Positions 13,488-64,000 of a DNA stretch of 64,000 bases are shown here, one piece after another. The position numbers and the translations under genes were made by a program. Location: assembly GCF_017051705.1 (NCBI RefSeq), contig NZ_JAFIDJ010000002.1, positions 204,289-268,288 on the forward strand. Direction: 5' to 3'. The number at the start of each line of letters is the position of its first letter. Within the stretch, counting starts at the first letter, position 1. A model generated the notes under the pieces. It did not search any database and had not been told where the DNA came from. It saw only the letters and a program-made list of their open reading frames with translations. Source of the stretch: Algoriphagus lutimaris. Lineage in GTDB: Bacteria; Bacteroidota; Bacteroidia; Cytophagales; Cyclobacteriaceae.

Positions 13488-16256
13488 ATGAAGTTCATTT
13501 TAACCACCTTAATTGCATTCCTTGGAATTCACTTTTTGGTTCTTGCCCAATCAGGCACAGTCACCGGAGTTGTTACTGATGCCGAAACAGGTGAAACCTT
13601 GCCTTTTTGTAATGTATTTATCAATAATACGACCATCGCTACAGTCACTGACCTAGATGGAAAATACGTTCTTTCTAACTTGGAGCCTGGCCCTTTGGAG
13701 ATAGGGTTCTCATTTATTGGCTATGTGGCTGAAACAAAAAAAATAACACTCAACCCAGGCGGCACTTCCACAGTCAACTTAAATATGCAACCCTTTGCGC
13801 AGGAATTGAGCGATGTGGAAATCAAAGCCTCTCGAGACAAAAGTTGGGAAAGAGACCTTAGAAAATTTGAAAACCTCTTTTTAGGGAATGACGAAATTGC
13901 AAGTAAGTCAACAATTGAAAATCCTTGGGTGATCGATTTTCCTGAACCCGAAGAGAAAAACACGTTCCAAGCTACTGCTGGGATTCCTTTAGAAATCACC
14001 AATAATTATTTAGGCTACAAAATCAGCTTTGACTTAAAAGAGTTTTTTGACTCCCCCACTAACTATAGAATTGCCGGAGCTGCAAGATTCGAAGAAATGG
14101 TTCCAGAAACAGAGGATCAACGTAGTATCTGGGAAAACAACCGAGCGGAGGTCTACAGAAAGTCTCCAATGAATATGTTTCGAGCGATGATCACTGGTGA
14201 TCAAGAAAAAGAAGGATTCTTTCTCTACGGTGATAAACCAGGAGGGTCTCCATCCATGAATATGCGTTCGGATATTTTTGCAAATGAATTGGGTAAATCC
14301 GTAGTGCCTTACAAACCTGATAATTTGGTCACACCTGCACCAAATAAAGAGGGTGAGTATTTGATCAATATGAAAGGAAGAATTGAGATTCACTACCAAA
14401 AAGGATATTCTCAAGTCAACACTTATAAGGATGCTCCTTACCCTGTTTCCTGGTTAGAAGTGTATAAAAACACGGTACGTGTCAAGGAAAACGGAATGGT
14501 CTTAAACCCTCAGGATTTGGTATTCTCAGGAGATATGGATCGGAAAAGGATCTCTACCCTACTCCCTTTGGATTATGATGCAGAGAAAGCCATCCAACTT
14601 CAAGACTTAGAAAAAACAGCTGCAAATTATCAGGAGAAAGTGTTTGTCCATAAAGACAAACCCTATTATTACGCAGGAGATCAACTCTACTTGAAGGCTT
14701 ATTTTAAATATGGAAATCCGTACTTACGGGATGAGCTTAGCAAGGTATTGTATGTAGAAGTGATTAATCAAAATAGAGACTTGATTATTGAAAAGAAGCT
14801 TCCAATACGAGATGGTATTGCTGTTGGAAATTTCTCACTTCCAGATACGCTTTCTCAGGAAAATTATTTCTTAAGAGCCTATACCAATTGGCAAAAAAAT
14901 TATGGCCCAAACCATTATTTTGTTGAGCCTGTCAGCATACTAACTCCTTATCAAAGGGTAGTAGAATTTGAATCCGGAGAATTTCCAGAACCTTCTGGAA
15001 TTGCGGTGATGGCCGATAAGGAGGTTTATGAAAAAAAAGAGAAAGTCACGTTAACAATCAAGACGCTTTCCGACAAAGAGATGCCTCTTTCCTCCAATAT
15101 TTCTGTGGCTGTAGTAGATCAAACACAAGTTTTACCTATTGAGGAAACAAGTAACATCAGTACTGACTTCCAACTTGAATCCATTCCATCCAGTATGGGA
15201 TTGGACCGATTTACTTATCCGGTAGAAAAATCTCTTTCCTTGGAGGGATTTGTAACCGATGATAAAGGTAAACCCACTTCTGCCTTGATAACGGCCTTTG
15301 TCAATGATTTTGAGGGAATGGTGGACCTTGAATCCAATAGAGATGGGGAATTCACGATGGAAGAAATGGAATTTTACGGACCTTTAAAACTTGCGTTTAA
15401 AGCCACGGATAAAAAAGGAAATACAGCAGGCACCGTAAAATTAATTGATGATTTAAAGGCACCAGTAGCACTTCCAGCGAATGCATATTTCCCAAAAAAG
15501 GAAACTGTATCGACTTCTATAAGACCTGAACCACCATTGGAAGAACAAGAAGTGGCACCCGAGGAAGAAGAAGTTAAGGAAAAAACAGAGAAAAAAGCCC
15601 TCTATGGCACTCCAAACTATATTGTACCCGGAGAAAAATTAATGGCCACTGGCAATACCGTTGACTTAGTCAATAGTTTGGCAGGAAATGTACCAAGTAT
15701 GCGAGTAACCTTAGCAGGAGCCTCTGGCCAACAACAAATCAGGTTGAGAGGAGGTGGTGTTTCAGCAAATGGCAACCTAGAGCCACTAGTGATGGTGAAT
15801 GGAACAATATTGGGACAAACTGGGGCTACGACGGCCGCAGACAATTTAAGGAGTATTAATGTTCAAGACATTGACCGAGTGGAAGTGGTAACCCGAACGG
15901 TGTCTATGCTGGGTGATCAAGGTAGAAATGGTGTAATTGCTGTTTATCTGAAGGAATACGATCCCAATGCAGAAAATCCATCGATGTCAGGAGAGGGCTT
16001 AAATACATATACTGTCGAAGGTTATACCACTTACAACCCTATTTATGTAATGGATTATTCACAGGAAAACGATGTTGACCTGATTGACAAAAGACAAACT
16101 TTATACTGGAATCCTTATTTAGTTACGGATGATAATGGAACTATAACCATCACCTTTTACACCAATGAGAATGGGGGGGCCATGAGTGTGTATGTAAAAG
16201 GCCTTGGGGTAAATGGTCAAGGATTATCCGGTTCTTTTACGATCAATTCCAAATAA
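13488..16256 (+). CDS. Envelope protein with carboxypeptidase-regulatory and TonB-plug-like domains (paralogue 2)
   Basis: 922 residues, same plan as the gene before it: signal peptide ending at LVLAQ (residue 21), regulatory beta-sandwich (GVVTDAETGETLPFCNVFIN, about residues 27-100), macroglobulin-like segments (EKVFVHKDKPYYYAGDQLYL near 384-404) and a plug-like domain near residues 720-825 (LVNSLAGNVPSMRV, GNLEPLVMVNG, IDRVEVVTRTVSMLGDQG). A Glu-rich linker (EEQEVAPEEEEVKEKTEKK) precedes the plug. It lies 40 bases after its paralogue. No barrel follows. The two may interact with TonB-system or secretion machinery, which is only an inference from the plug domains. Confidence 0.8.
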   Translation: MKFILTTLIAFLGIHFLVLAQSGTVTGVVTDAETGETLPFCNVFINNTTIATVTDLDGKYVLSNLEPGPLEIGFSFIGYVAETKKITLNPGGTSTVNLNMQPFAQELSDVEIKASRDKSWERDLRKFENLFLGNDEIASKSTIENPWVIDFPEPEEKNTFQATAGIPLEITNNYLGYKISFDLKEFFDSPTNYRIAGAARFEEMVPETEDQRSIWENNRAEVYRKSPMNMFRAMITGDQEKEGFFLYGDKPGGSPSMNMRSDIFANELGKSVVPYKPDNLVTPAPNKEGEYLINMKGRIEIHYQKGYSQVNTYKDAPYPVSWLEVYKNTVRVKENGMVLNPQDLVFSGDMDRKRISTLLPLDYDAEKAIQLQDLEKTAANYQEKVFVHKDKPYYYAGDQLYLKAYFKYGNPYLRDELSKVLYVEVINQNRDLIIEKKLPIRDGIAVGNFSLPDTLSQENYFLRAYTNWQKNYGPNHYFVEPVSILTPYQRVVEFESGEFPEPSGIAVMADKEVYEKKEKVTLTIKTLSDKEMPLSSNISVAVVDQTQVLPIEETSNISTDFQLESIPSSMGLDRFTYPVEKSLSLEGFVTDDKGKPTSALITAFVNDFEGMVDLESNRDGEFTMEEMEFYGPLKLAFKATDKKGNTAGTVKLIDDLKAPVALPANAYFPKKETVSTSIRPEPPLEEQEVAPEEEEVKEKTEKKALYGTPNYIVPGEKLMATGNTVDLVNSLAGNVPSMRVTLAGASGQQQIRLRGGGVSANGNLEPLVMVNGTILGQTGATTAADNLRSINVQDIDRVEVVTRTVSMLGDQGRNGVIAVYLKEYDPNAENPSMSGEGLNTYTVEGYTTYNPIYVMDYSQENDVDLIDKRQTLYWNPYLVTDDNGTITITFYTNENGGAMSVYVKGLGVNGQGLSGSFTINSK

Positions 16257-47151: not shown

Positions 47152-47168
47152 CGTAGTAGCGGGAACAG
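47143..47168 (+). repeat. Right copy of 26-bp direct repeat, candidate attachment site
   Basis: It matches 40088-40113 at 25 of 26 bases. It lies about 190 bases before an integrase gene, where an attachment site is expected. It also overlaps a small hairpin (GTAGCG at 47156-47161, CGCTAC at 47169-47174), the sort of inverted arm that surrounds tyrosine-recombinase crossover sites. Confidence 0.6.
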
Positions 47169-47354
47169 CGCTACATAGATCTTAATCTTATTTAATTGAA
47201 TTTTTCTAAAAACAGGCCTATAGTAGATATAAACATTATAATGCAATAAAATTAAATTCAGATATCATCAAATATATTAAATTAAAGTGTACCCCAAAGT
47301 GTACCCCGACTCAAATTTTGTCTAAATTGAATTGTCCAATCAATTCAAGCAAAC

Positions 47355-48680
47355 ATGGCAAAATTCAACTTCTACCTTCGGGACAAGAAAAAGGATGGTG
47401 AAACCCCCATACTTTTTATGATCAGTTTCGGATCAATCCGTGTGAAGTATCCATCCCAAAAAAGCATTCATCCCAAATTTTGGAATGAGCGTGACCAACA
47501 GGCCAGACAAGTAAGAGAATTCCCCCAAGCAAAAGTCTTCAATAGCACCCTTAAACATTTGAAGGATTCAGCTGAAAAAACCTTGCTCCAACTTGAAACA
47601 GAATTGGAAAGGCTACCAACTTCAGAAGAGTTGAAAAATCAATTGGATATTGAGCTGGGTAGAAGTATCCCTTTTGAAGAGGTAGATGAAAAGAAAAACT
47701 GGAAACTCCTCGATTACTTTGAGCTATTCATTGAAGAATCCAAGGACGGGACGAGACTCACTCCAAAAGGAAGAAAGTTTGACAAAAGATCAATTCAGAA
47801 GTACAATACTGTATTGAGGTCTTTAAGGGAATTCGGACAGACATATCCACTCACCTTTGAATCAATTGACAAATCCTTCTACACGAAATATGTCAAATAT
47901 TTGAACACAGAAATTTCAGAAAAGAAACCGAATGGGGAAAAAAAGATTATTAAAAAAGCATTCTCCATAAATAATGTTGGCAAATACATACAAGTCATTA
48001 AAACCTTCTTAGCATGGGCAACCGAAAATGGAGTGAATCATAACCTCTATTATCGATCTCGACAGTTTAAAGCCCCGAAAGAACCTGGGTTTTCAATATA
48101 CCTGAACGAGAAGGAAATTGAAGCTATTTATTATCATGATCTAAGTAACACACCGCATTTAGAGCGGATTCGAGATCTGTTTATTGTTGGTTGTTGGACG
48201 GGTCTTCGATTCTCCGATTTCACTAATATACAACCTGAAGATATTGAAGGTGATTTTATCAAAATCAAGACATTCAAAACAGAAACTCCTGTTGTGATTC
48301 CTGTCCATTGGATGGTTAGAAAAATACTAGAAAAATATGATGGCAAGTATCCAAACAGTTTACCACCTGCCACATCCAATCAAAATATGAACAACGGATT
48401 GAAGGAGATTGCAGAAAAAGTGGATTTATTAAAAGTAACTATTTATGAGGAGGGGGTAAGAGGTGGAGTTAAATTTAGAGAAAAAAGCATTAAATGGAAG
48501 TATGTGGTAACGCACACCGCAAGAAGATCATTTGCCACAAATGTCTATTTGAGCGGGTTTCCTGCAATCAGCATAATGAAAATAACAGGTCATACTACAG
48601 AGAAGGCTTTTTTAGCCTATATTAAAGTCACTCCTGAGGAGAATGCAAAAAGACTTTTAGAACATTGGGCTAAATCATAA
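47355..48680 (+). CDS. Tyrosine site-specific recombinase (integrase)
   Basis: 441 residues. The N terminus (FNFYLRDKKKDGETPILFMI) is the arm-binding domain of Bacteroidetes integrases, a SAM-like core-binding domain covers about residues 110-220, and the catalytic domain has R285 (GLRFSDF), H387-R390 (HTARR), H413 (GHTTEKAF) and Y422. All catalytic residues are intact. It should move the element in and out of the tRNA-like site about 190 bases upstream. Confidence 0.93.
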   Translation: MAKFNFYLRDKKKDGETPILFMISFGSIRVKYPSQKSIHPKFWNERDQQARQVREFPQAKVFNSTLKHLKDSAEKTLLQLETELERLPTSEELKNQLDIELGRSIPFEEVDEKKNWKLLDYFELFIEESKDGTRLTPKGRKFDKRSIQKYNTVLRSLREFGQTYPLTFESIDKSFYTKYVKYLNTEISEKKPNGEKKIIKKAFSINNVGKYIQVIKTFLAWATENGVNHNLYYRSRQFKAPKEPGFSIYLNEKEIEAIYYHDLSNTPHLERIRDLFIVGCWTGLRFSDFTNIQPEDIEGDFIKIKTFKTETPVVIPVHWMVRKILEKYDGKYPNSLPPATSNQNMNNGLKEIAEKVDLLKVTIYEEGVRGGVKFREKSIKWKYVVTHTARRSFATNVYLSGFPAISIMKITGHTTEKAFLAYIKVTPEENAKRLLEHWAKS

Positions 48681-51907: not shown

Positions 51908-54900
51908 ATGAGTAATTCACTCGATAAAACTGATCTAACCTTTTTCACCAATGAAACTGGTCATACTCTACTTAGTCGTTTTAAATCAACATTAAAAGAC
52001 ACCCAGCTTTTTGATGTTTTAGTTGGTTATTTTAGAGCAAGTGGATTTTATCAGTTGTACGACGCTCTAGAGCCAGTAGAGAAAATAAGAATTCTTGTTG
52101 GTTTAAGTATTGATAGAGATTCATACGATATGATACAATATCACCAGCAATTGGGAATGATTGATTTCGAATCACATCAAAGAACCAAAAAACAATACCA
52201 AGAGAATCTTAAAATTGAGATTGAGAATAGCAATGAGAATGACAATAGCCTAGAGTTAGGAATTCGAAAATTCATTGAATTTCTTCAAACTGATTGCAAA
52301 GATATAGCCATGGATCAAGCCTATCATGGCAATGGCAAAAAATTAGAAATTAGAGCTTATCCATCGAAGAATATTCACGCAAAGGTTTACATCGGAAAGT
52401 TCAAACCAGATGACCGGGATTATGGATTTGTGATTACAGGTTCTAGTAATTTTTCAGAATCTGGATTTGTGGCAAATCGTGAATTTAACGTTGAACTTCG
52501 AACCAAAAGGGATGTGCTTTTTGCGGAAAATCAGTTTAATGCACTTTGGAAAGAGTCAGTTGATATTTCGGACGATTTTATTGATACTATACAGAATAAA
52601 ACATGGCTCAATGATCAAATCAAGCCGTATGAACTTTACCTCAAACTGATTTATGAATATTTAGAAGAAGACATCAATCTAGCCGATGAGTTTGAACCGT
52701 TTTTGCCAGAAGGGTTTATGAAATTGAAGTACCAAAACCAGGCAGCAATTCAAGCCAAGAAAATTCTTGATACCTATAATGGTGTTTTCCTTGCAGATGT
52801 TGTAGGCTTGGGTAAAACCTTTGTGACAGCATTGCTTCTCCAACAACTCCAAGGAAGAACTTTAGTCATTTGTCCGCCAGTTTTGAAGGATTACTGGAAA
52901 GATTCATTGTTTGATTTTGGAATTAGAAGTTTTGAGGTAGAATCCCTTGGCAAACTGGAGCACATTATCAAAAAAGGGTTGGAGCGTTACGACTATATTG
53001 TAGTGGATGAAGCACACCGTTTCAGAAATGAAGGAACTCAATCATATGCCAATTTATTAGACATCTGTCGAGGGAAGAAAGTAATTCTGGTTACTGCCAC
53101 TCCTTTAAACAACACTGTTGACGATATTTTTGCCCAATTAAAATTATTTCAGGCACCAAAAAATTCAACTATCCCCGGAATTCCAAATCTTGAAAAGTAC
53201 TTCGCAAATTTCCGAACAAAGTTTTCTAAGCTAGAAAAAACAGATCCGAACTATAAGAAGCTTATCAAAGAGGTTTCTGATGACATAAGAAACAGCATAT
53301 TACGATATGTAATGGTGCGAAGGACCCGTAAAGATGTAATGACTTATTTCAGTCAAGACATGAAAATGCAGGGTCTTACATTCCCAGACTTGAACAATCC
53401 TGAAAAAATAGTTTACGAATACAAAGGTGAATTGGAAATTACTTTTAAAGAAACTATGCTAAAGCTGGCTGGATTCACCTATGCTCGATACACTCCTTTG
53501 CTCTATTACATTGGTAACAAAACGTTAAGTGAGTTTGAAAAACAGCAACAACGCAATATTGGAGGGTTTATGAAAGGAATATTGGTGAAGAGATTGGAAA
53601 GCAGTTTTCATGCTTTTCGCCAAAGTGTTGAACGTTTCATTATCTCTTATGAAAAATTCATAGAAATGTATCATAATGGCACGATCTACATCAGTAAAAA
53701 GATAGATGTCTATGATCTGATCGAAAGTGATAATATCGAAAAATTAGAGGCTTTTGTAGAAGATGAAAAAGCCCATAAATACGATTCAAAAGACTTCAGA
53801 AAAGAGTTTATCACAAAGCTTGAATTTGATTTGGAGCTACTAAAAGAAGTAAAAGAGCTTTGGAAGAAAGTGGACACAGACCCTAAATTGGAGCAGTTCA
53901 TAAAGGAATTAAAAAAAACCTACGCCCTTAAAAAAAATAAGCTAGTCGTATTTACCGAATCTAAAGAAACGGGAGATTACATCTATGACGCTTTGATCGA
54001 TGAATTTCCCGGCAAAGTTATGTTCTATTCCAGCAATGGGGGGAGGCACACTGATAAGAAACTAACATCCAACAATGTAGTTTCCCGTGATTTAATCACA
54101 GCCAATTATGACCCAAATCGAAAACAAAAAGAACAAGCAGATGATTTGAAGATACTCATTGCAACCGATGTGTTGGCAGAAGGAATTAACCTCCACCGCT
54201 CCAATGTACTAGTGAATTACGATTTGCCTTGGAACCCAACTCGGGTACTTCAAAGAGCAGGGCGTGTCAATAGATTAGGAAGCAAGTTTCCAAAAGTTCA
54301 CATTTTCAACTTTTTCCCAACCACCCAATCAGATGAACATTTAGGGTTAGAAGTGAACATAACCAACAAGATCCAAATGTTTCATGACATCTTGGGTGAA
54401 GACGCAAAGTACCTCAGCGATGGAGAGGAATTTGGCAGTCAGGAATTGTTTAACACTTTGAACAGCAAGACAGCTTACACAGGGGAAGAAGGGGAAGGTG
54501 ATTCCGAATTAAAGTACCTCGAATTGATGCGGAAAATAAGAGACGAACAACCAGACTTATTTGAAAAAATCAAAAATCTACCCAAGAAGGCCCGTTCGGG
54601 ATTTCGAAAAGAGGAATTAACAGCGGACCAATTGGTAACTTTTTTCAGGATAGGAAGACTCAAAAAATTCTATCTTAATAAATCAGGAGCCTCCAATGAA
54701 ATCAATTTTTTTGATGCAGTGAAAGTCTTAGAATGCAAAGCTGAAACAAAGAGGGCAAACATCCCAAATGAATACTACCATTTATTACAAATCAATAAAT
54801 CCAGATTTGAACTGGATACAACTGTAGGGGATGAAGTTTCTTCTGGAAACCGTGGTCGTTCAAACGCAAAATACATTGAGAACCGATTGAAGGATAGATC

Positions 54901-55153
54901 ATTTAAGAACTTCAAAGGTTTCACCGATTCTAATGATGAGTTTATCAATGGGGTGAAAGAAATGCTTGCACAAGGAACTATAGCAAAGAAAACAGCCCAA
55001 ATTATCAAAAAAGACTTGGAGAAAACTATTGACCCACTTCAAGTATTACATATTTTAGAAAGGCATATTCGCTTTGTAGCTGTAGAAGGAGCACAAAATG
55101 CCAGAAAATTTCAGAAACGGGAAGTAATTCTTTCAGGGTATTTAACTTACTAA
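51908..55153 (+). CDS. SF2 helicase with N-terminal PLD-type nuclease domain
   Basis: 1081 residues. The N-terminal PLD-like domain has one HxK motif, H157-K159 (NIHAKVYIGKF), and GSSNFSESGF about 20 residues later, as in HKD nucleases. An SF2 helicase follows: Walker A DVVGLGKT near 297-305, DEAH at 367-370, TATPL, then the C-terminal lobe LIATDVLAEGINLHRS and QRAGRVNRLGS. The gene is followed two bases later by an Eco57I-type methyltransferase, so it likely belongs to a restriction-type defence pair. It is neither a drmA nor a BREX helicase by its neighbours. Confidence 0.87.
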   Translation: MSNSLDKTDLTFFTNETGHTLLSRFKSTLKDTQLFDVLVGYFRASGFYQLYDALEPVEKIRILVGLSIDRDSYDMIQYHQQLGMIDFESHQRTKKQYQENLKIEIENSNENDNSLELGIRKFIEFLQTDCKDIAMDQAYHGNGKKLEIRAYPSKNIHAKVYIGKFKPDDRDYGFVITGSSNFSESGFVANREFNVELRTKRDVLFAENQFNALWKESVDISDDFIDTIQNKTWLNDQIKPYELYLKLIYEYLEEDINLADEFEPFLPEGFMKLKYQNQAAIQAKKILDTYNGVFLADVVGLGKTFVTALLLQQLQGRTLVICPPVLKDYWKDSLFDFGIRSFEVESLGKLEHIIKKGLERYDYIVVDEAHRFRNEGTQSYANLLDICRGKKVILVTATPLNNTVDDIFAQLKLFQAPKNSTIPGIPNLEKYFANFRTKFSKLEKTDPNYKKLIKEVSDDIRNSILRYVMVRRTRKDVMTYFSQDMKMQGLTFPDLNNPEKIVYEYKGELEITFKETMLKLAGFTYARYTPLLYYIGNKTLSEFEKQQQRNIGGFMKGILVKRLESSFHAFRQSVERFIISYEKFIEMYHNGTIYISKKIDVYDLIESDNIEKLEAFVEDEKAHKYDSKDFRKEFITKLEFDLELLKEVKELWKKVDTDPKLEQFIKELKKTYALKKNKLVVFTESKETGDYIYDALIDEFPGKVMFYSSNGGRHTDKKLTSNNVVSRDLITANYDPNRKQKEQADDLKILIATDVLAEGINLHRSNVLVNYDLPWNPTRVLQRAGRVNRLGSKFPKVHIFNFFPTTQSDEHLGLEVNITNKIQMFHDILGEDAKYLSDGEEFGSQELFNTLNSKTAYTGEEGEGDSELKYLELMRKIRDEQPDLFEKIKNLPKKARSGFRKEELTADQLVTFFRIGRLKKFYLNKSGASNEINFFDAVKVLECKAETKRANIPNEYYHLLQINKSRFELDTTVGDEVSSGNRGRSNAKYIENRLKDRSFKNFKGFTDSNDEFINGVKEMLAQGTIAKKTAQIIKKDLEKTIDPLQVLHILERHIRFVAVEGAQNARKFQKREVILSGYLTY

Positions 55154-55155
55154 TT

Positions 55156-58100
55156 ATGGATAAGAAAGCAGCTCAACAGCTTATTGAGAATACTTTTAAT
55201 GAAGCTTTTGATGAAGATCAATTCACGATTTTTGCCAAAAACTTACTGAATGATCTAGAGCCGAAAAGCAATTTTTATACTGGTAATCTTATCTGGGATG
55301 ATTACAAAGAGCATATCAACACCTACAAGCGGATTGGAAAGTATACCGATCCTGAAGGTGAACCTTTGGATGTGTTAATTGTAGAAGTAAAAAGCATCCA
55401 AAAGCTAGAACGGGCAAGAACTGCCCTACGGAATTTTGTAATCAAACATTTGAGTAAGTTTGAAAAAGATTATGCTTTGGTGGCATTCTACTCTAAAGAA
55501 GATAAAGGGCTGGATTGGCGTTTCTCTTTTATAAAGCTGGAATATCGATCTGAATTGGATGCAGAACAAGGTAAAGTAAAAACAACAAAAGAGTTTACTC
55601 CTGCCAAACGCTATTCCTTCCTTGTGGGTAAGTATGAAAAATCCCATACTGCCAAAAATCAGTTGTTGCCTCTGCTACAAAACATTGCTAATAACCCTAC
55701 CATCGAGGAGTTAGAAGCAGCATTTAGTATTGAAAAGGTTACTGATGAGTTTTTTGAGCAATACAAGTCTCTGTTTGAAAAGCTTTCAAAACATATTGCT
55801 GAAAATGATAATATTCAAACTGAATTAGTAAAATCAAATATTGACACTACCCGATTTACCAAAAAACTGCTGGGACAAATCGTGTTCCTCTATTTCTTAC
55901 AGAAAAAGGGCTGGTTGGGAGTAGCACAAAATGCCAAATGGGGAACTGGTAAGAAGCGTTTTATCCAAGAGCTTTTTGACCAAGCGCAGAGCGAAGGTGT
56001 CAATTTTTTCAAAGACAAACTGCAATACTTATTCTATGAAGGTCTAGCCAAAGAACGTGACAATGAGAACTCATTTTACACCAAACTTAATTGCCGGATC
56101 CCGTTTCTGAACGGTGGTTTGTTTGAAGCTGATTACGATTGGGAAAACGCCAACATTACGATTCCTACTTCGCTATTTAGAAGTGGTGAAGAAAGAGAAG
56201 AAAAACGAACTGGTGTTCTAGATATTCTAGACCGCTACAACTTCACTATCAAAGAAGATGAGCCACTGGATAAGGAAGTAGCAGTCGATCCTGAAATGCT
56301 GGGTAAGGTGTTTGAAAACATGCTGGATATTACCGAAAGGAAGAGCAAAGGAGCTTTCTATACCCCCAGAGAAATCGTACACTATATGTGTCAAGAAAGT
56401 CTGATCCACTATCTAGACAATTCTCTGAATAATGGTACTGACAGCTATCAGGCTATCGATAGTGATCAGACGAGTATGTTTGCAGGCAATAGTCATAAAA
56501 AGGGGAATCTTAAAATAGAGCTTGAACATAAAGGAAAAATACTTGTCCCAAAATCAGATATTGAAATCTATATCCGTGAAGGTCATTTTGCACTGGAAAA
56601 TGATCAACGGGTTGCCTCCAAAGGCGAAACCAAAACTTACCAATACCAACTACCCGAAAGTATTCGTCAAAATGCTGATCTAATAGACAAAAAGCTAAGC
56701 GACATACGAATTTGTGACCCTGCCATTGGTTCGGGTGCATTTCCTGTTGGGCTTCTTCATGAACTGGTAAATGCCATGTTAGTGTTAAAGCCTCATTTTA
56801 GCCTGAACTACCTGAAAGACAAACTAGATAAGTTTGGATTTAAGGAAAGAGAGAGCGTAAATGAAAGCCGCTATATCTACCGTCTGAAACGCCACATTAT
56901 ACAGGAAAGCATTTATGGAGTGGATATAGATCCCTCTGCCATAGACATAGCTCGTCTACGTTTGTGGCTCTCATTGGTCGTAGACGAAGATGACCTAGAT
57001 CCAATTGAAACACTTCCAAACTTGGATTATAAAATTGTTTGTGGGAATTCATTAATTGGATTACCCGCACAGGGAGTCGACAGATATCCCCAGCTGAGCA
57101 AAGAATTGGAAGAGTTAAAAGAAAAATTTTATAATGAGACCAATGAACAAGAAAAAAAGAAACTTCGAACTAATATCAATGAAAAGATTCTAACTGTTTT
57201 AAAGGCAGCAGAAGATTTCGAAGGCTACAAAATAGACTTTGACTTCAAACTCTATTTTTCGGAAGTGTGGCGAGAGAAAGGTGGCTTTGATGTGGTGATT
57301 GGAAACCCACCTTATATTCAAATTTCTAAGCTTGATTTGGAATTAAAGAAGAATCTTGCTAAAATGAATTTCGAAACATTTTCTTCGTCTGGTGACATTT
57401 ATGAGTTGTTTTACGAGAATGGGAATAGAGTTTTAGCTAAAGGTGGCCATTTATGTTTTATAACATCAAACAAGTGGCTTAGAGCTAATTATGGAACTTC
57501 CACTCGGAAATTCTTCCTGACCAACACAAATCCCAAATTACTTTTTGATTTTGGCCAAGAAATGGTTTTTACAACGGCTATTGTTCATAGTAATATCTTG
57601 CTTTTTCAAAAAGAAAAGTTTAAAAATGAATTTAAAGGGTGTCAACTTACTAAGGCGAAGCTTAACTCGCTCATTAAATATTTTAATGAAAATTCAATAA
57701 GGCTTGACTATTTCAATGAAGAGGTTTGGGCTATTTCTACCCCTGAATTAATTAAAGTAAAATTGCACTTAGAAAAAATTGGGACAAAAATCTCGGATTG
57801 GAATATAGATATAAATTATGGATTAAAAACTGGATATAATGATGCATTCATAATAGATGAGGATAAGAAAAACGAACTTGAATCAAAGGATAAGAAAAAT
57901 AAAGAACTTATTAAACCTATATTAAGAGGCCGTGACACCAGAAAATATTATTGTAATTTCCATAATTACTACTTAATAAACACACACAATGGAAGTAAGA
58001 AACAAAGAATTAGCAGAATTGATGTAGTAAAAGAGTATCCTACTCTTTATGAACATTTAAAATACTTTCTCCCAAAAGTATCGATAAGAAGTGACAGGGG

Positions 58101-58743
58101 TGATCATTGGACCAATTTGCGAAATTGTGCTTATTTAGATGAATTAGAAAAAAATAAAATAGTTTTTTCGGAAATCGTCTCAGAACCGCAATTCTATTAC
58201 GATACCCAAAAATATTATCCAGAGGCCACCGCTTTTTTAATCACAGGAGAAAATCTTAAATGGCTAACTGCATTCTTAAATTCTGAATTAATTACAGTAT
58301 TGTTCCGAATTTTTTATGCTGGTGGGGAACTGGTTGGAAAGTATCGCTACAAAAAAGCATTTTTGGAAAACCTTCCAATTCCAGAACCAAATGCGGTTTT
58401 TAAACCTGGAATGGAATTGCTTGTAGATTACTTAGGGCTTTATAAGGGTGTTTATAAAGATAAATCAAAAGAAAAGTCTGAATCAGCTTTTTTTGAATCT
58501 ATTGTAGACTGTTTGGTTTATGAAATTGTCTTCCCTGAAGAAATCAAATCGGCAGGCAAAGAAATCTTAAAGCATTTGAGAGATTTAAAGCCTATCTCAA
58601 ATGAAATGAGCGAGGAAGAGAAGCTTGCTATTGTTGAAAGTGAGTTTGAGCGTTTGTATGACCCCAATCATCCAGTGCGATTTGCAATTGAAACTCTAGA
58701 TAGTGTTGAAGAGGTGAGAATTATTAAGGAGGTACTGAAGTAA
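55156..58743 (+). CDS. Eco57I-type N6-adenine DNA methyltransferase, type IIG-like, with specificity domain
   Basis: 1195 residues. The N-terminal region holds D72 and E77-x-K79 in LDVLIVEVKS, a possible PD-(D/E)xK nuclease motif. SAM-binding DPAIGSGAFPVG starts near 521, and the adenine-methylation motif NPPY is at 717-720. A TaqI-like target-recognition part follows (LKTGYNDAFIID, ILRGRDTRKYY, AFLENLPIP). This is the layout of single-chain type IIG restriction-modification enzymes. The helicase gene just upstream could supply translocation. The nuclease motif is weak and should be treated as tentative. Confidence 0.88.
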   Translation: MDKKAAQQLIENTFNEAFDEDQFTIFAKNLLNDLEPKSNFYTGNLIWDDYKEHINTYKRIGKYTDPEGEPLDVLIVEVKSIQKLERARTALRNFVIKHLSKFEKDYALVAFYSKEDKGLDWRFSFIKLEYRSELDAEQGKVKTTKEFTPAKRYSFLVGKYEKSHTAKNQLLPLLQNIANNPTIEELEAAFSIEKVTDEFFEQYKSLFEKLSKHIAENDNIQTELVKSNIDTTRFTKKLLGQIVFLYFLQKKGWLGVAQNAKWGTGKKRFIQELFDQAQSEGVNFFKDKLQYLFYEGLAKERDNENSFYTKLNCRIPFLNGGLFEADYDWENANITIPTSLFRSGEEREEKRTGVLDILDRYNFTIKEDEPLDKEVAVDPEMLGKVFENMLDITERKSKGAFYTPREIVHYMCQESLIHYLDNSLNNGTDSYQAIDSDQTSMFAGNSHKKGNLKIELEHKGKILVPKSDIEIYIREGHFALENDQRVASKGETKTYQYQLPESIRQNADLIDKKLSDIRICDPAIGSGAFPVGLLHELVNAMLVLKPHFSLNYLKDKLDKFGFKERESVNESRYIYRLKRHIIQESIYGVDIDPSAIDIARLRLWLSLVVDEDDLDPIETLPNLDYKIVCGNSLIGLPAQGVDRYPQLSKELEELKEKFYNETNEQEKKKLRTNINEKILTVLKAAEDFEGYKIDFDFKLYFSEVWREKGGFDVVIGNPPYIQISKLDLELKKNLAKMNFETFSSSGDIYELFYENGNRVLAKGGHLCFITSNKWLRANYGTSTRKFFLTNTNPKLLFDFGQEMVFTTAIVHSNILLFQKEKFKNEFKGCQLTKAKLNSLIKYFNENSIRLDYFNEEVWAISTPELIKVKLHLEKIGTKISDWNIDINYGLKTGYNDAFIIDEDKKNELESKDKKNKELIKPILRGRDTRKYYCNFHNYYLINTHNGSKKQRISRIDVVKEYPTLYEHLKYFLPKVSIRSDRGDHWTNLRNCAYLDELEKNKIVFSEIVSEPQFYYDTQKYYPEATAFLITGENLKWLTAFLNSELITVLFRIFYAGGELVGKYRYKKAFLENLPIPEPNAVFKPGMELLVDYLGLYKGVYKDKSKEKSESAFFESIVDCLVYEIVFPEEIKSAGKEILKHLRDLKPISNEMSEEEKLAIVESEFERLYDPNHPVRFAIETLDSVEEVRIIKEVLK

Positions 58744-58860: not shown

Positions 58861-61272
58861 ATGTCCAATTTAACCTTAGCCAAATTACTTCCCGTAAATA
58901 GCAGCCAGTTACCAGCACAAAAGCACACCTATATTGGTCTCGATTTTGGAACATCTACCACGGTGGTTAGCCTTTTTGGAGACGGGCATTCATCAGAAGT
59001 GGTGTCCCCAATCCAAATTTCTCAGCAATACCAAAGCGGCGCCGTTATTCAGGATACCAGAATTCCAACATGTCTTGCCTACAGCAAAAAATACGATGAA
59101 TTGTATTTTGGAGCCGGAGCTTATGAAGCTCGATTCAACCCTCTCCTGGAATTGGGTAAGAACGTATGGTTTGAATTTAAAACGCTCCTTGGAGAGGACG
59201 TTGGTCCGAGGTATCACAATACCGTTTTGGATGGAAAAGATGGACGTTTAAAGCTCGAAACTGCTGTTGACGCAACAGCTATTTTTTTAGGGAATATTCG
59301 TGAAGAGGTAGAAAAGGAAATTGAAAAAAAAAGACTACCAAAAAAAATCATGTGGGCGGTAAGTGTCCCTGCATCATTTGAAGCAAACCAACGAAAGGAT
59401 TTGATTGAAGCATTAAATCGGGCAGGAATTGCTAACATCGGAGAAAGTATGCTCATAGATGAGCCCAATGCTGCATTTTTGAGTTATGTCGATCAATCTG
59501 CAAGGCTAGCTGGCCAAAAACCCCTTGTAGTACCAGATGGCAAACCCATTTCAGTCCTTGTATTTGATTTTGGAGCAGGGACTTGTGACATATCAATTTT
59601 ACAATTTCAGCAGGATGATTTCTCTGGAGTAAAATCCAAAAATGTTGCTATTTCACATTACACTGAGATCGGAGGGAAAGACATCGATAAGATGATAGCG
59701 GACAAATTTGTTGAAGAATTATTGCCGCTAGAATCATCTACTCCTCAGGTATCGGATATCCCGATGCGTGTTAAAGAGAGATTAAGCCACCAGCTTTTAA
59801 GGATTGCAGAGCAGGTAAAGATTGAGTTATGTAAACAGGTAATGTTCCATCAAACCAATTCCAGAAACACGGATATCGACTCTCTCTTTTCAACATTTGG
59901 AATATCTCCTGAAGTCAAGGACCATCAAAACCGGATCTATCAGCTACCTAAGGTCAAGCTTACCTATCAGGACATGACTGGGATAATTAAAAAATTTACA
60001 ACTGAAAGGTCACAGAAAAGTATAATCAGTCCAATAAAGTCAGCATTAAAATCAGCTGGATTGAAAGCAAAGGATATTGATTATGTCTTATTCGTTGGTG
60101 GAAGTTCTAAAAATCCATGGATTCAAACAGCTGTGAAAGACTATTTTCCAGAGTCTGATTATTTGTTCCCTGAGGATATGCAAACCTTAGTTTCTGAGGG
60201 AGCTGCAATTCATAGTTATTACTTTAATGGGTTAAATCATAAGCTAATCAATCCCATTACTGGCCCTACCATAAACCTAAGAATGTCTAATGGACTAATG
60301 AAGGTTTTGGTGCCTTCAGGTACAGAAATTCCTTTTGAGGGAGATGAAATCAATGATTTGAGACCGCAAAGAGAGAACCAAGAAGCGATAGAACTTCCGA
60401 TCTGTTTGACTTCTGAGTCCCATATTTTACAAAACTTAAAAATTGAACCATTAGGCAAGCGTGGCTTCTCACTATCTGACAAGATATCCTTGAAGGTTAA
60501 AATAACCGCTGACAAAACTTTGCACGTAGCTGCTAAAGTGTCAACCGGTGAAGCAGTTGTTACCCAGCTAAATCCATATTCATCCAGAGCTTTATCAACA
60601 AGAGAAAGGATTGCGGCAGAAGGAAGAAAAAGATTCAATCAGGCAATCAGAAGAAATGCTGGGAACCCAACAGCGTCAGCATTTATAAATCTTTCAGAGG
60701 CTTTAAAAAAAGCAGAACAAAGAAAAGAAGCCGCAGAAATGATGGAAGAGGGATATCAAATTGATAAAGGAAGAGTAGATCTAAATAGTTTGGCCGTTGC
60801 TTGGCATAATGCAGGAAATATTACAAAAGCAAAAGAATTTTACAACCTAGCTATTGAGCAAGGGGATGTGTATGCATGTGCCAATCTAGCAAACGCAATT
60901 AGATGGACAGAACCAGAAGAATATAGAAAATTATTAATCAAAGCATTTTCAATGAACCCAAGTAATGACTGGGTCCTCTATAATTATGGTGAAATGCTGA
61001 AGAGTGAAAATAACGAAGAATGGCAAAAACATTGGAAGACCTGTCTACGAATTTATTTAAATCGGCTTAATTCCAAGACTTTAAAAAAAGATGATGTTGA
61101 TAGAGCATTGGTTATTTCAAAAGCATTAAATGAACCACAAACAACAGCCCTAATAAATGAATATTCTTCAACCATTTCCAGTGAAAATCAGGTGTTCAAT
61201 GAAAATAATACGGTCACTTCCAATTCAAAACAAATTGTAAAAAACTCGTCCATAAACCCCTTAATTAATTGA
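58861..61272 (+). CDS. Hsp70-like ATPase with C-terminal TPR-like repeats
   Basis: 803 residues. The actin/Hsp70 ATPase fold is complete: phosphate-1 GLDFGTST from residue 26, phosphate-2 VFDFGAGTCD at 234-243 and adenosine motif FVGGSSKNP from 411. A short beta region near 490-580 (LPICLTSESHILQNL, KISLKVKITADKTLHV) resembles a degenerate substrate-binding domain. The tail (about 600-770) has helical TPR/Sel1-like repeats (DLNSLAVAWHNAGNITKAK). No C-terminal chaperone tail motif. It is not the housekeeping dnaK: there is no grpE or dnaJ, and it lies in mobile cargo two bases before a helicase gene. Confidence 0.85.
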   Translation: MSNLTLAKLLPVNSSQLPAQKHTYIGLDFGTSTTVVSLFGDGHSSEVVSPIQISQQYQSGAVIQDTRIPTCLAYSKKYDELYFGAGAYEARFNPLLELGKNVWFEFKTLLGEDVGPRYHNTVLDGKDGRLKLETAVDATAIFLGNIREEVEKEIEKKRLPKKIMWAVSVPASFEANQRKDLIEALNRAGIANIGESMLIDEPNAAFLSYVDQSARLAGQKPLVVPDGKPISVLVFDFGAGTCDISILQFQQDDFSGVKSKNVAISHYTEIGGKDIDKMIADKFVEELLPLESSTPQVSDIPMRVKERLSHQLLRIAEQVKIELCKQVMFHQTNSRNTDIDSLFSTFGISPEVKDHQNRIYQLPKVKLTYQDMTGIIKKFTTERSQKSIISPIKSALKSAGLKAKDIDYVLFVGGSSKNPWIQTAVKDYFPESDYLFPEDMQTLVSEGAAIHSYYFNGLNHKLINPITGPTINLRMSNGLMKVLVPSGTEIPFEGDEINDLRPQRENQEAIELPICLTSESHILQNLKIEPLGKRGFSLSDKISLKVKITADKTLHVAAKVSTGEAVVTQLNPYSSRALSTRERIAAEGRKRFNQAIRRNAGNPTASAFINLSEALKKAEQRKEAAEMMEEGYQIDKGRVDLNSLAVAWHNAGNITKAKEFYNLAIEQGDVYACANLANAIRWTEPEEYRKLLIKAFSMNPSNDWVLYNYGEMLKSENNEEWQKHWKTCLRIYLNRLNSKTLKKDDVDRALVISKALNEPQTTALINEYSSTISSENQVFNENNTVTSNSKQIVKNSSINPLIN

Positions 61273-61273
61273 T

Positions 61274-62404
61274 ATGCCTACAGCACATGCAAATAAATGG
61301 TTCGTTGAATATGAATCACTGGATAGCGACCAGAAAAAACTGGTTAATGGATTAGTTTTTGAAAATGGGAAAACCGTTGGATTAATTAGCGGACCTGCAG
61401 GATCAGGAAAAACCATTATCCTAGTAAATGCACTTTCTAAATCAAATTCAAATAATATTGCCTTTGTCTCATATACTAGGTCATTATTAAATTTGGCAGA
61501 CCAAGGGCTACCTTCAAATGTTAGAGCTATGACATATTTTAAGGCGCTAAAAGAATATGCCAATTACGATCTTGTTGTTATTGATGAGGTACAAGATGTC
61601 CCTGCAGAAGCACTTAATATTATTATTTCAAGATCAAAAAAAACACTTTTAGCTGGAGACAACTTTCAGAAAATATTTGAAAATGGTGCGGATTCAGCAA
61701 CACTTAATTCTGTAAGTAAAGGTAATGTCCATAAACTCACCCGTACTTATAGGTTAACTCCACGAGCATTTGCGGCAGCGTCCAAGATTTACCCAGGAGC
61801 TTTGGAAGGTGTTTCTCCAAGTGGGAAAGCTGTAGTACCTATTGAATTATACAATACAGATTTGAATGATGAAGGAGATTTTCTCTCTTACGATATAGCA
61901 AAAAGAGAGTCGGAAAAACGAAGAACTTCCGCCATATTATTACCAAAAAAAAACAGTATTGTTGAGTTTGCAAATAAAATATTGGCGAAGCAGGGAAAAC
62001 CTAGGTGGATTGTTGTAAAAAACAGCTATTCAAAGGAAGACTTTGGATCTTTAAACAGGCATTTAAGGAATAATCAGGTAAAACTCCACGTAGTTCAAAA
62101 CAGCTATGGTGATTTAAATGAAGCTTTTGAAAACAATGAAGTTGTGATCCAAACTTATCATAGCGCAAAAGGATTAGATTATCAAGTGGTATGCCTACCA
62201 AATTTAAGTGTAGAAGAGGCAACCAGTACCTCAGAGTTACAAAGATCATTATTTTATGTAGCCATAACTAGAGCAAGTGGCGCTTTGATTATTACACAAA
62301 ATAAAAACACCTCCTCTTCTTATTTAAAGACAATTGAAGAGTTTTGTACAAAAATGGACGCAAGTCGAATAGTAAAAGAAGATGATAATGAAGATGAATT
62401 CTAA
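61274..62404 (+). CDS. Minimal UvrD/Rep-like superfamily 1 helicase
   Basis: 376 residues, much shorter than UvrD (about 700), with the core motifs only: Walker A GPAGSGKT at 40-47, motif II DEVQD at 104-108, LLAGDNFQKIF (motif III), RTYRLT (motif IV), TYHSAKGLDYQVV (motif V region) and YVAITRAS (motif VI). The large 1B and 2B insertions seem absent. It ends in an acidic tail. It begins two bases after the Hsp70 gene and overlaps the start of the next, so the three genes look translationally coupled. Confidence 0.88.
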   Translation: MPTAHANKWFVEYESLDSDQKKLVNGLVFENGKTVGLISGPAGSGKTIILVNALSKSNSNNIAFVSYTRSLLNLADQGLPSNVRAMTYFKALKEYANYDLVVIDEVQDVPAEALNIIISRSKKTLLAGDNFQKIFENGADSATLNSVSKGNVHKLTRTYRLTPRAFAAASKIYPGALEGVSPSGKAVVPIELYNTDLNDEGDFLSYDIAKRESEKRRTSAILLPKKNSIVEFANKILAKQGKPRWIVVKNSYSKEDFGSLNRHLRNNQVKLHVVQNSYGDLNEAFENNEVVIQTYHSAKGLDYQVVCLPNLSVEEATSTSELQRSLFYVAITRASGALIITQNKNTSSSYLKTIEEFCTKMDASRIVKEDDNEDEF

Positions 62405-64000
62405 ATACGCATATCTATTTTTCGATCCAGAATATTTGGTGGATCTTTTAAGAGCTGGAGGTAGATTTTCTATTACGCAATCTTTCTTAATACCCTCGGC
62501 TTATTCACCTCAATCTGAAATAGTAGAATTCGTTGAAAAAAGTTTTCCTACTTTAAGTGAGGAGCGTTACGAAATCTGTTTAAAATTTCGTTTACCAGAA
62601 GACAAGTCTAATTTATGGTTTTCACTAGAAGAAATAATAAGTGCACATTTCTACAGTAAACATAGACAGGAGGCTGTTTCGGAAGGGGTATTACATACCT
62701 TAAATGTATATGGAATACCAGTTTTGGAGCCTTTGGATAAGAACATTGAACATGTGATAGAGGTATATGATTCGACTATCAGAGAGCATACGGCTAGAAT
62801 GATTAATAGAGCCTGGTTTCCAGATGTTAAAATATCGAATGAGTTTATTTACCAACTAAAACTTGGATATAAGTACCAGCAATCCCCTGCTCCAGAACAA
62901 TTGCCTCAAATTCCCTCAGAGTACATTTGGGCCCATTTGGTAGCCTATAATCCTGGACTTCGGAAATTTGAAGAAAGACCTAAAGTTTTATGGCTCCAAG
63001 ATATTCAGGAGGTAATCAAACGAACTGATTCCAGTTTCAAACAAGAACTAAAATCAATTGGAGAAAAATATAACTCCAAGTTTTCAGATATTTTAGATTC
63101 TGCCGAAAAAGGAAATGGGCCTTCAAAATGGATAGTTGAAAAAAATAAGAATGAAAAAAGCTATTTTTCTGAATTGAATAGGTTTTTAAGTCATTCGGCC
63201 AAACAACAAAATTTCTTCTATACTGCCTTGCTTTATCTTAATTGGAGGGAAAGTGTTTTAAACCATGACTATTCTGGAAAATTATCAGACCATAAAGAAG
63301 TTAGTGCCTTTCTAAACCTTTCAAAAGATAATCCCATACGGAAAGCTATTGCAGAGGCATTGTTTACTATCGTTTTTGCAGGTGGCCCTAAAGTTTTTCA
63401 AAAAGCGCTGATAGAAGCAAGAAAGAAAATATTGGGGATACAAGAACCAAATCAACCAAATATTCATAAAACTCCAAATAGCCCGATTAAGCCAACTACG
63501 AAGCCAAAAGGTTTGAAACTTTTTGAAGACCTCAAAAATTTATTTGGAAAAATATTTGGTAGGAGGTATGATGAATCAAGCGCCACAAAAAAAAAAGAAA
63601 TTCAAAAAGACATAAAGAAAATCGGTAGCACAATAACCAAAATAAAAAAGGGAGAATTTGACTATGAGCAATACCTTACCCTCTGTTTACTATTTGAAAT
63701 TCAAGCAGAGCCATTTGATGATTATCCTAAAAATGAGCCAGATAGGTCTAATACGACAGACTATCCAAATGAAATAAATAAGGATACAGGTAATCAATCA
63801 ATGGTAGAATCAGCAACAGAAGAGGATTCATCCGATAATAAAGATAAAACGGCTACTGATTCTGACCAACCCGATAAAAAAGGGGATTTGATTGACGATT
63901 CAACTGCACCATCAGACAAAACAGATGCACCACCAAGTGATACTGAAAACAAGCATTCTGAGGAAGATCAATCAGATATAAATAAGGATACAGCTAATCA
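62388..64000 (+). CDS. Large unrecognised protein with acidic repetitive tail (3' end outside window)
   Basis: An open frame of about 537 residues with no stop before the window edge; it starts at ATG 62388 or 62394, overlapping the helicase stop. The first 370 residues look globular (YAYLFFDPEYLVDLLRAG, IWAHLVAYNPGLRKFEERP, KAIAEALFTIVFAGGPKVF). A basic helical linker follows (LKLFEDLKNLFGKIFGRR, KKKEIQKDIKKIGS), and then a Asp/Ser/Thr/Asn-rich tail with the repeated element NKDTxNQ (coding near 63773-63795 and 63978-64000). No domain is recognised. By position it is the third component of the Hsp70-helicase module. Confidence 0.8.
   Translation, partial: MKMNSKYAYLFFDPEYLVDLLRAGGRFSITQSFLIPSAYSPQSEIVEFVEKSFPTLSEERYEICLKFRLPEDKSNLWFSLEEIISAHFYSKHRQEAVSEGVLHTLNVYGIPVLEPLDKNIEHVIEVYDSTIREHTARMINRAWFPDVKISNEFIYQLKLGYKYQQSPAPEQLPQIPSEYIWAHLVAYNPGLRKFEERPKVLWLQDIQEVIKRTDSSFKQELKSIGEKYNSKFSDILDSAEKGNGPSKWIVEKNKNEKSYFSELNRFLSHSAKQQNFFYTALLYLNWRESVLNHDYSGKLSDHKEVSAFLNLSKDNPIRKAIAEALFTIVFAGGPKVFQKALIEARKKILGIQEPNQPNIHKTPNSPIKPTTKPKGLKLFEDLKNLFGKIFGRRYDESSATKKKEIQKDIKKIGSTITKIKKGEFDYEQYLTLCLLFEIQAEPFDDYPKNEPDRSNTTDYPNEINKDTGNQSMVESATEEDSSDNKDKTATDSDQPDKKGDLIDDSTAPSDKTDAPPSDTENKHSEEDQSDINKDTAN

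Follow-up and report, generated by a model that had tools for sequence, protein, structure and literature searches.

A recurrent trio of Hsp70-type ATPase, minimal SF1 helicase, and third-protein genes on mobile DNA as a candidate defence module

We examined a 64,000-nucleotide stretch of the Algoriphagus lutimaris genome (assembly GCF_017051705.1, contig NZ_JAFIDJ010000002.1, positions 204,289 to 268,288), here called the window, and found that three adjacent genes at its end form a conserved unit that recurs across genomes. The genes encode an Hsp70-type ATPase, a minimal UvrD-like helicase of superfamily 1 (SF1), and a third protein. We tentatively read this trio, with somewhat less than an even chance of being right, as a self-contained, ATP-driven module of three proteins, carried as cargo by mobile elements, whose most likely role is to protect its host against phages or other invading elements. 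All three genes lie on the forward strand. The Hsp70 gene (positions 58861 to 61272; 803 amino acids [aa]) was identified from the list of open reading frames (ORFs), Pfam, a match to the DnaK chain, and its catalytic residues; the helicase gene (61274 to 62404; 376 aa) follows after 1 base and was identified from the ORF list, Pfam, Protein Data Bank (PDB) matches, and retained motif residues. The third gene starts at 62382, overlaps the helicase gene by 23 nucleotides, and runs to 64000 and past the window end. A preliminary description of the window had reported three genes on one strand, separated by one base and then overlapping, which agrees with the ORF coordinates. It had wrongly ended the third gene at 64000: in the same genome beyond the window, the reading frame extends into acidic repeats (L003:5662-6302), which are interrupted by an assembly gap of 95 N (L003:5790-5884) and contain a 131-bp exact repeat at L003:5885 and L003:6089.

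A scan of 84,980 species genomes yielded 193 relatives of the Hsp70. We examined 87 loci: the best 80 of the 193, two from a viral collection (L096 and L097), the window, L011, L012, L014, and L015; L013, a broken Hsp70 in genome G037 with no helicase seen in the ORF list, was excluded. The loci were collected via the Hsp70 from its best-scoring relatives, and the rates given here apply to these and not to remoter Hsp70s. A helicase gene adjoined the Hsp70 gene (same strand, within 500 bp) in 72 of the 74 loci with room for one, a locus counting as such if the sequence continued for 1.1 kb or more beyond the Hsp70 gene or if a helicase was visible. The exceptions (L079 and L085), both Acidobacteriota-type bins, had a longer Hsp70 of ∼1,200 aa and no adjoining helicase. 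Where at least 1 kb followed the helicase, a third gene (at least 250 aa, same strand, within 150 bp) was present in 63 of 66 loci; by this rule there was none in L080, in L094, or in L019, whose helicase is divided between two ORFs. Whether the same three genes recur together had been posed as a check on the preliminary description, and the answer is that they do. Because of this recurrence, we rejected the possibility that they are chance neighbours.

Residue counts, tail counts, and the tree were based on the 69 loci with a helicase, excluding L019, L080, and L094. The 69 Hsp70s represent 8 phylum groups, three of them with a single row each, and include many metagenome bins. Phylum labels were clustered on the Hsp70 tree (9 changes; mean after shuffling, 29.5). 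The Hsp70 of the window sat on a long branch of unsure placement. Pairwise distances were strongly correlated between Hsp70 and helicase (0.965), Hsp70 and third protein (0.913), and helicase and third protein (0.894) across 55 loci, a set from which the window, the three odd third proteins, and truncated or disrupted copies had been removed. None of 2,000 permutations gave values as high, and shared descent alone also yields high values; this co-divergence shows that the genes have long been inherited together, not that their products interact physically.

The trio is patchily distributed. Within the window's phylum (Bacteroidota), Hsp70 relatives were found in 4 of 296 genomes, including the window's own and the broken G037 copy. 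Two plasmids, Antarctobacter pSMS3-3 and Persicobacter pPP6, carry an annotated Hsp70, AAA ATPase, and hypothetical protein in a row. On a contig from the viral collection (L096:644-11343), the family Hsp70 follows four genes that PHROG matches assign to tails or tail fibres, and the locus ends within the Hsp70; this suggests that the gene is cargo of a prophage or of an element resembling a gene transfer agent. Hsp70 genes broken by a stop or frameshift were seen in L011 (genome G159) and L013 (G037), which suggests that the module is dispensable. We also observed two trio copies ∼18 kb apart on one contig of Dulcicalothrix desertica PCC 7102 (L059 and L061; NZ_RSCL01000012.1).

The first protein was described beforehand as an Hsp70-type ATPase with tetratricopeptide repeats (TPR). 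The Hsp70 part is well founded: Pfam HSP70 matched residues 134 to 610 of the window's copy (2.3e-31), and in the PDB comparison a DnaK chain aligned over residues 117 to 624, through the beta substrate-binding domain. The TPR matches are weak, with families below the Pfam cut-off (TPR_19, 1.3e-4) and mostly after residue 600, where the lid would be. The region beyond residue 590 had a length of 198 to 226 aa in 68 of the 69 copies. G26, D28, G30, T31, and K107 were conserved in all 66 copies that have residues at these positions (gaps in the other 3), and E201, D236, T241, and D243 were conserved in all 69; among them, D28, K107, E201, D236, T241, and D243 correspond by motif to ATPase residues of DnaK. 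The protein has two features of the Hsp70 superfamily, a nucleotide-binding domain with conserved ATPase residues and a beta substrate-binding domain. A C-terminal motif of the type Y-N-x-x-N-L was present in 50 of 69 Hsp70s and 18 of 414 controls, the pattern having been written after the data were seen. The only PADLOC matches for the Hsp70 and the third protein were PDC-M61B (0.0022) and PD-Lambda-5_A (0.015).

The helicase exceeded the Pfam cut-offs of Viral_helicase1 and UvrD_C, in line with its first description as a cut-down UvrD-like enzyme. K46, D104, E105, Q107, D108, Q132, and R160 were conserved in 69 of 69 copies, and T332 and R333 were conserved in all 68 with a residue there. 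PADLOC and PDB matches were mostly of the UvrD/PcrA/GajB type, which are DNA helicases. The window's copy ends in DDNEDEF, with a terminal Phe (62381 to 62401, forward strand), and this end is conserved in the family: among 68 helicases ending inside their locus, Phe was the last residue in 61, compared with 17 of the 414 other ORFs in these loci. Clusters ended in Phe throughout in 38 of 43 cases at 70% identity and 20 of 23 at 50%. The residues before the terminal Phe are often acidic or aromatic (DFDF, EEFF, DDLF); the combination of a terminal Phe with at least 4 acidic residues in the last 12 was found in only 27 of 68 helicases, compared with 1 of 414 controls. The tail resembles the acidic tip of single-stranded-DNA-binding protein (SSB), which ends in Phe. 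That tip is reported to be an interaction site.

Of the 63 third proteins, 59 formed one BLAST cluster, here called the family, outside which fell the window's copy, L012 with L015, and L091. The family's hidden Markov model gave the window's protein only 8.4 bits, mostly from its biased tail. A profile comparison aligned it colinearly with the family over 294 columns (E value, 0.002; probability, only 13.8), and its calibration score was 30.5. The highest scores were 20.1 among 84 control proteins and 21.4 among 20 shuffles, the reversed sequence scored 14.2, and among the matches listed none from a control or shuffle spanned more than 46 columns. We read the window's protein as a remote member of the family. 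The third proteins of L012, L015, and L091 showed no such relation in the profile comparison.

The preliminary description had found no recognised domain in this protein and had noted an acidic tail; the first statement can be refined. No Pfam family matched the window's copy. Structure models, compared with known folds as had been proposed, have a DarT/Tpt1-like fold in the N-terminal ∼115 residues, followed by a helical core; the family representative also has a winged-helix-like C terminus. Well-filled polar columns of the N domain conserved at 60% or more comprise one Tyr, one Asp, and one Glu, and no conserved catalytic set was found in the N domain of the family. The acidic repeat tail is present in the window's copy and specific to it; other copies have a winged-helix-like domain or other tails, and cyanobacterial third proteins of 341 to 345 aa have none. 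On the models and the lack of such a set, we tentatively read the third protein as a mostly non-enzymatic adaptor.

To examine the genomic context, we scanned 199 of 200 neighbouring ORFs (150 to 1,400 aa, within three ORFs of the trio), leaving aside twelve of the 69 loci (near-duplicates and loci not from the scan). At a threshold of 1e-20 there were 203 PADLOC models among 119 neighbours and 118 among 80, compared with 4 among 115 control ORFs from 15 arbitrary stretches; these figures count models rather than proteins, several being generic helicase models, and the controls are limited to the window's phylum, whereas the neighbours span many phyla. On these counts, the neighbours of the trio are richer in PADLOC models than arbitrary ORFs are, the preliminary description having proposed to ask whether known defence genes lie nearby more often than chance. 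Named matches, among those listed, include SspC, DrmD, ZacC, BrxC, DpdF, Cas1, CARF nucleases, and type I, II, and III restriction enzymes. Only ten neighbour families recurred in at least 3 loci, the largest in 7, and because so few recur, the trio looks largely self-contained. One recurrent neighbour, a gene of 107 to 124 aa, follows the trio in 7 loci (L045 [13858-14196], L023, L025, L035, L047, L050, and L053), three of them near-duplicates; its L045 representative matched TerB (25.6 bits; cut-off, 24.4), and this TerB-like gene is possibly a fourth component.

The mobile and defence-rich context supports a role in defence, as do precedents for chaperone sensing: the CmdTAC chaperone CmdC senses a phage capsid protein (PMC11618068), and bNACHT25 requires DnaJ (PMC12169576). 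Several points, in addition to the limits of the PADLOC counts, weigh against it. When ten large neighbours were scanned singly at 1e-60, 5 matched and 5 had no match, and ordinary neighbours such as EutB and AcrB-type transporters are present too. Mobile islands carry non-defence cargo as well. No nuclease or proven toxic effector was found in the trio, the adaptor role is based on structure models and the missing conserved catalytic set, and metagenome bins may carry erroneous phylum labels.

Two conserved ATP motors, an adaptor, conserved short tails, and docking-type repeats point to a complex whose helicase would be gated by the Hsp70 cycle. Sensing or switching would fall to the Hsp70-like protein: through its ATP cycle and its beta substrate-binding domain, it would capture an exposed peptide, from either an invader protein or a partner, while TPR-like helices would take the place of the lid and keep the other subunits bound. 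The third protein, with its ADP-ribosyltransferase (ART)-like domain lacking a conserved catalytic set and its helical core, would serve as adaptor, and its variable tails (winged helix or acidic repeats) may contact nucleic acid or protein partners. The C-terminal Phe tail would tether the helicase, which the Hsp70 cycle would load onto or release on invader nucleic acid, and unwinding or stripping would then disrupt replication or expression of the invader. Co-occurrence, co-divergence, the conserved ATPase motif residues and helicase end, and the mobile, defence-rich context are what we observed; the complex, the docking of the tail, the replacement of the lid, the target, and the anti-phage effect are what we infer. 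We consider it rather unlikely, if plausible, that the trio represents a new class of immunity in which an Hsp70 with a TPR docking domain in place of its lid licenses a small SF1 helicase tethered by an SSB-like C-terminal Phe tail, an ART-fold pseudoenzyme serving as adaptor, so that the chaperone cycle times the helicase attack on invader nucleic acid.

In the window, the trio is part of an integrative element at a tRNA-Met gene. The element runs from window position 47154 to L003:10441, ∼21.5 kb from repeat to repeat including the N gap, and is bounded by a 15-bp direct repeat, the left copy of which (47154 to 47168) is a candidate att site and the right copy of which (L003:10427) lies at the end of the tRNA-Met gene (L003:10429-10502). 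We placed these ends because a close relative (G657) has the same flanks with other cargo: its left flank is the same up to position 47175 (98.6% identity), its right flank is the same beginning at L003:10425 (97.7% and 95.0% identity), and ∼7.2 kb of unmatched cargo lies between them at the same site. That cargo contains fragments of Rhs-like appearance and a 484-aa ORF. All on the forward strand, the element encodes a tyrosine integrase (47355 to 48680; Phage_integrase, 2.2e-9) and, immediately before the trio and outside its core, an HKD/PLD-SNF2 helicase (51908 to 55153; Pfam and PADLOC C3a139, 2.5e-51) and a type IIG restriction-modification enzyme (55156 to 58743; PADLOC REase_MTase_IIG, 6.8e-265). 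The integrase, the element ends, and these two genes agree with the earlier account of mobile-element cargo following a restriction-like pair. Downstream of the trio are a GmrSD-type enzyme (PF03235, 1.5e-31; PF07510, 1.6e-9; PADLOC HEC-06, 8.3e-40), a RecF/SMC-like ATPase for which no PADLOC model reached 1e-20, and a terminase-small-subunit-like gene. The GmrSD-type gene, which has PADLOC HEC-06/Orf5 matches, overlaps the RecF/SMC-like gene directly after the trio (L003:6506-9854), and the two are possibly a second, two-gene defence pair.

Of the other explanations that we weighed, an unlikely one is RNA-directed defence, in which the Hsp70 and helicase act on invader RNA or ribosomes, as proposed for CnuD and CnuH of the CoCoNuT systems. 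The helicase matches point mostly to UvrD/PcrA/GajB-type enzymes instead, no McrB-type GTPase or McrC was found among the island genes scanned, and the ATPase residues of the trio are conserved, in contrast to the degenerate Walker A-like motifs described for CnuD. There is a smaller chance that the trio serves maintenance or stress functions of mobile elements (replication restart, plasmid stability, or repair) rather than defence. Plasmids and an integrative element carry it, a UvrD-like helicase with an Hsp70 could remodel replication complexes, and the gene with the TerB-matching representative follows in 7 loci. However, the trio is not tied to one element type: no more than ten neighbour families recur in at least 3 loci, with a maximum of 7 loci, and models of restriction, Ssp, DISARM, Dpd, BREX, and CRISPR type recur as a class among the neighbours. 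More doubtful again is a chaperone-controlled toxin, in which the third protein would be an active ADP-ribosyltransferase-like effector restrained by the Hsp70 and freed once infection occurs, much as in CmdTAC or DarTG. Finally, it is highly improbable that the trio is an accessory of the HKD-SNF2/type IIG pair and not a system of its own: the pair precedes the trio both in the window and, in a genome of a different family, in L011 (G159; L011:2196-8930; PADLOC C3a139, 3e-53; type IIG model, E value of 0), where two small genes and then the trio with its interrupted Hsp70 follow, but HKD-SNF2 relatives were found in only 3 loci (the window, L011, and L032, the last closer to DrmD), and elsewhere the trio adjoins other genes.

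The trio is a rare find: a three-gene machine with two conserved ATP motors and no name in the libraries searched, kept across 8 phylum groups (three of them one genome each). Should its role be in defence, it would be a chaperone-gated helicase that couples the sensing of protein state to nucleic acid remodelling. It makes testable whether Hsp70 chemistry serves as an immune sensor, and mutations can be aimed precisely at the TPR-like region and at the conserved tail of the helicase.

No named gene set that corresponds to the trio was found in Pfam, NCBIfam, PADLOC (2023), or the papers searched, a search that left subscription papers largely uncovered, and identity with a named system was therefore rejected, as the preliminary description had anticipated. 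Nor were the homologues found mostly apart with housekeeping partners. The main text of the DefensePredictor paper (PMC13092281) contains no mention of Hsp70, DnaK, chaperone, UvrD, or helicase, and the main texts of PMC12458937 and PMC12839542 do not mention Hsp70. As far as these searches reach, the gene set is unnamed, and a name might exist in the uncovered literature or in catalogues later than 2023.

Parts of the trio can be compared with known systems. The helicase, which is UvrD-like, has a partial PADLOC match to one model of GajB of Gabija (1.8e-16), but it is smaller, there is no GajA among the matches listed for the trio and its two upstream neighbours, and its partners are an Hsp70, which precedes it in 72 of 74 loci, and the third protein. 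The third protein resembles DarT and Tpt1 (KptA) in the fold of its first ∼115 residues, by structure comparison of models only; it differs in that the family of third proteins gave no sequence-profile match to them, and in having no conserved catalytic set that we found and a fused helical core with variable tails. Systems predicted by Kaur et al. in 2020 include HSP70 (with GrpE), sometimes with TPR partners, in biological conflict, but are built on GTPases, with no SF1 helicase core described in the accessible part of the paper (PMC7159879). CmdTAC likewise has three genes, a chaperone as possible sensor, and an ART-fold protein, the fold being known in the trio from models; its chaperone is SecB-like and it has no helicase, whereas the trio has an Hsp70-type protein, a helicase as the middle gene, and no conserved catalytic set that we found. 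The nearest published architecture that we found is that of the type III CoCoNuT systems (PMC11090510). Types III-B and III-C combine an Hsp70-like protein (CnuD), a UPF1-like SF1 helicase (CnuH), and CnuB/CnuC, so that, as with the trio, a single presumed defence locus encodes both an Hsp70-like protein and an SF1 helicase. The two differ in that neither an McrB GTPase nor McrC turned up in the window's locus when the trio was scanned with Pfam and PADLOC and the main island genes with Pfam. CnuD is described with HEAT-like matches and degenerate Walker A-like motifs, whereas the trio's Hsp70 has conserved ATP-site residues and weak TPR matches; CnuH carries a large insertion, whereas the trio's helicase is a minimal UvrD-like core without it; and the third components are different proteins.

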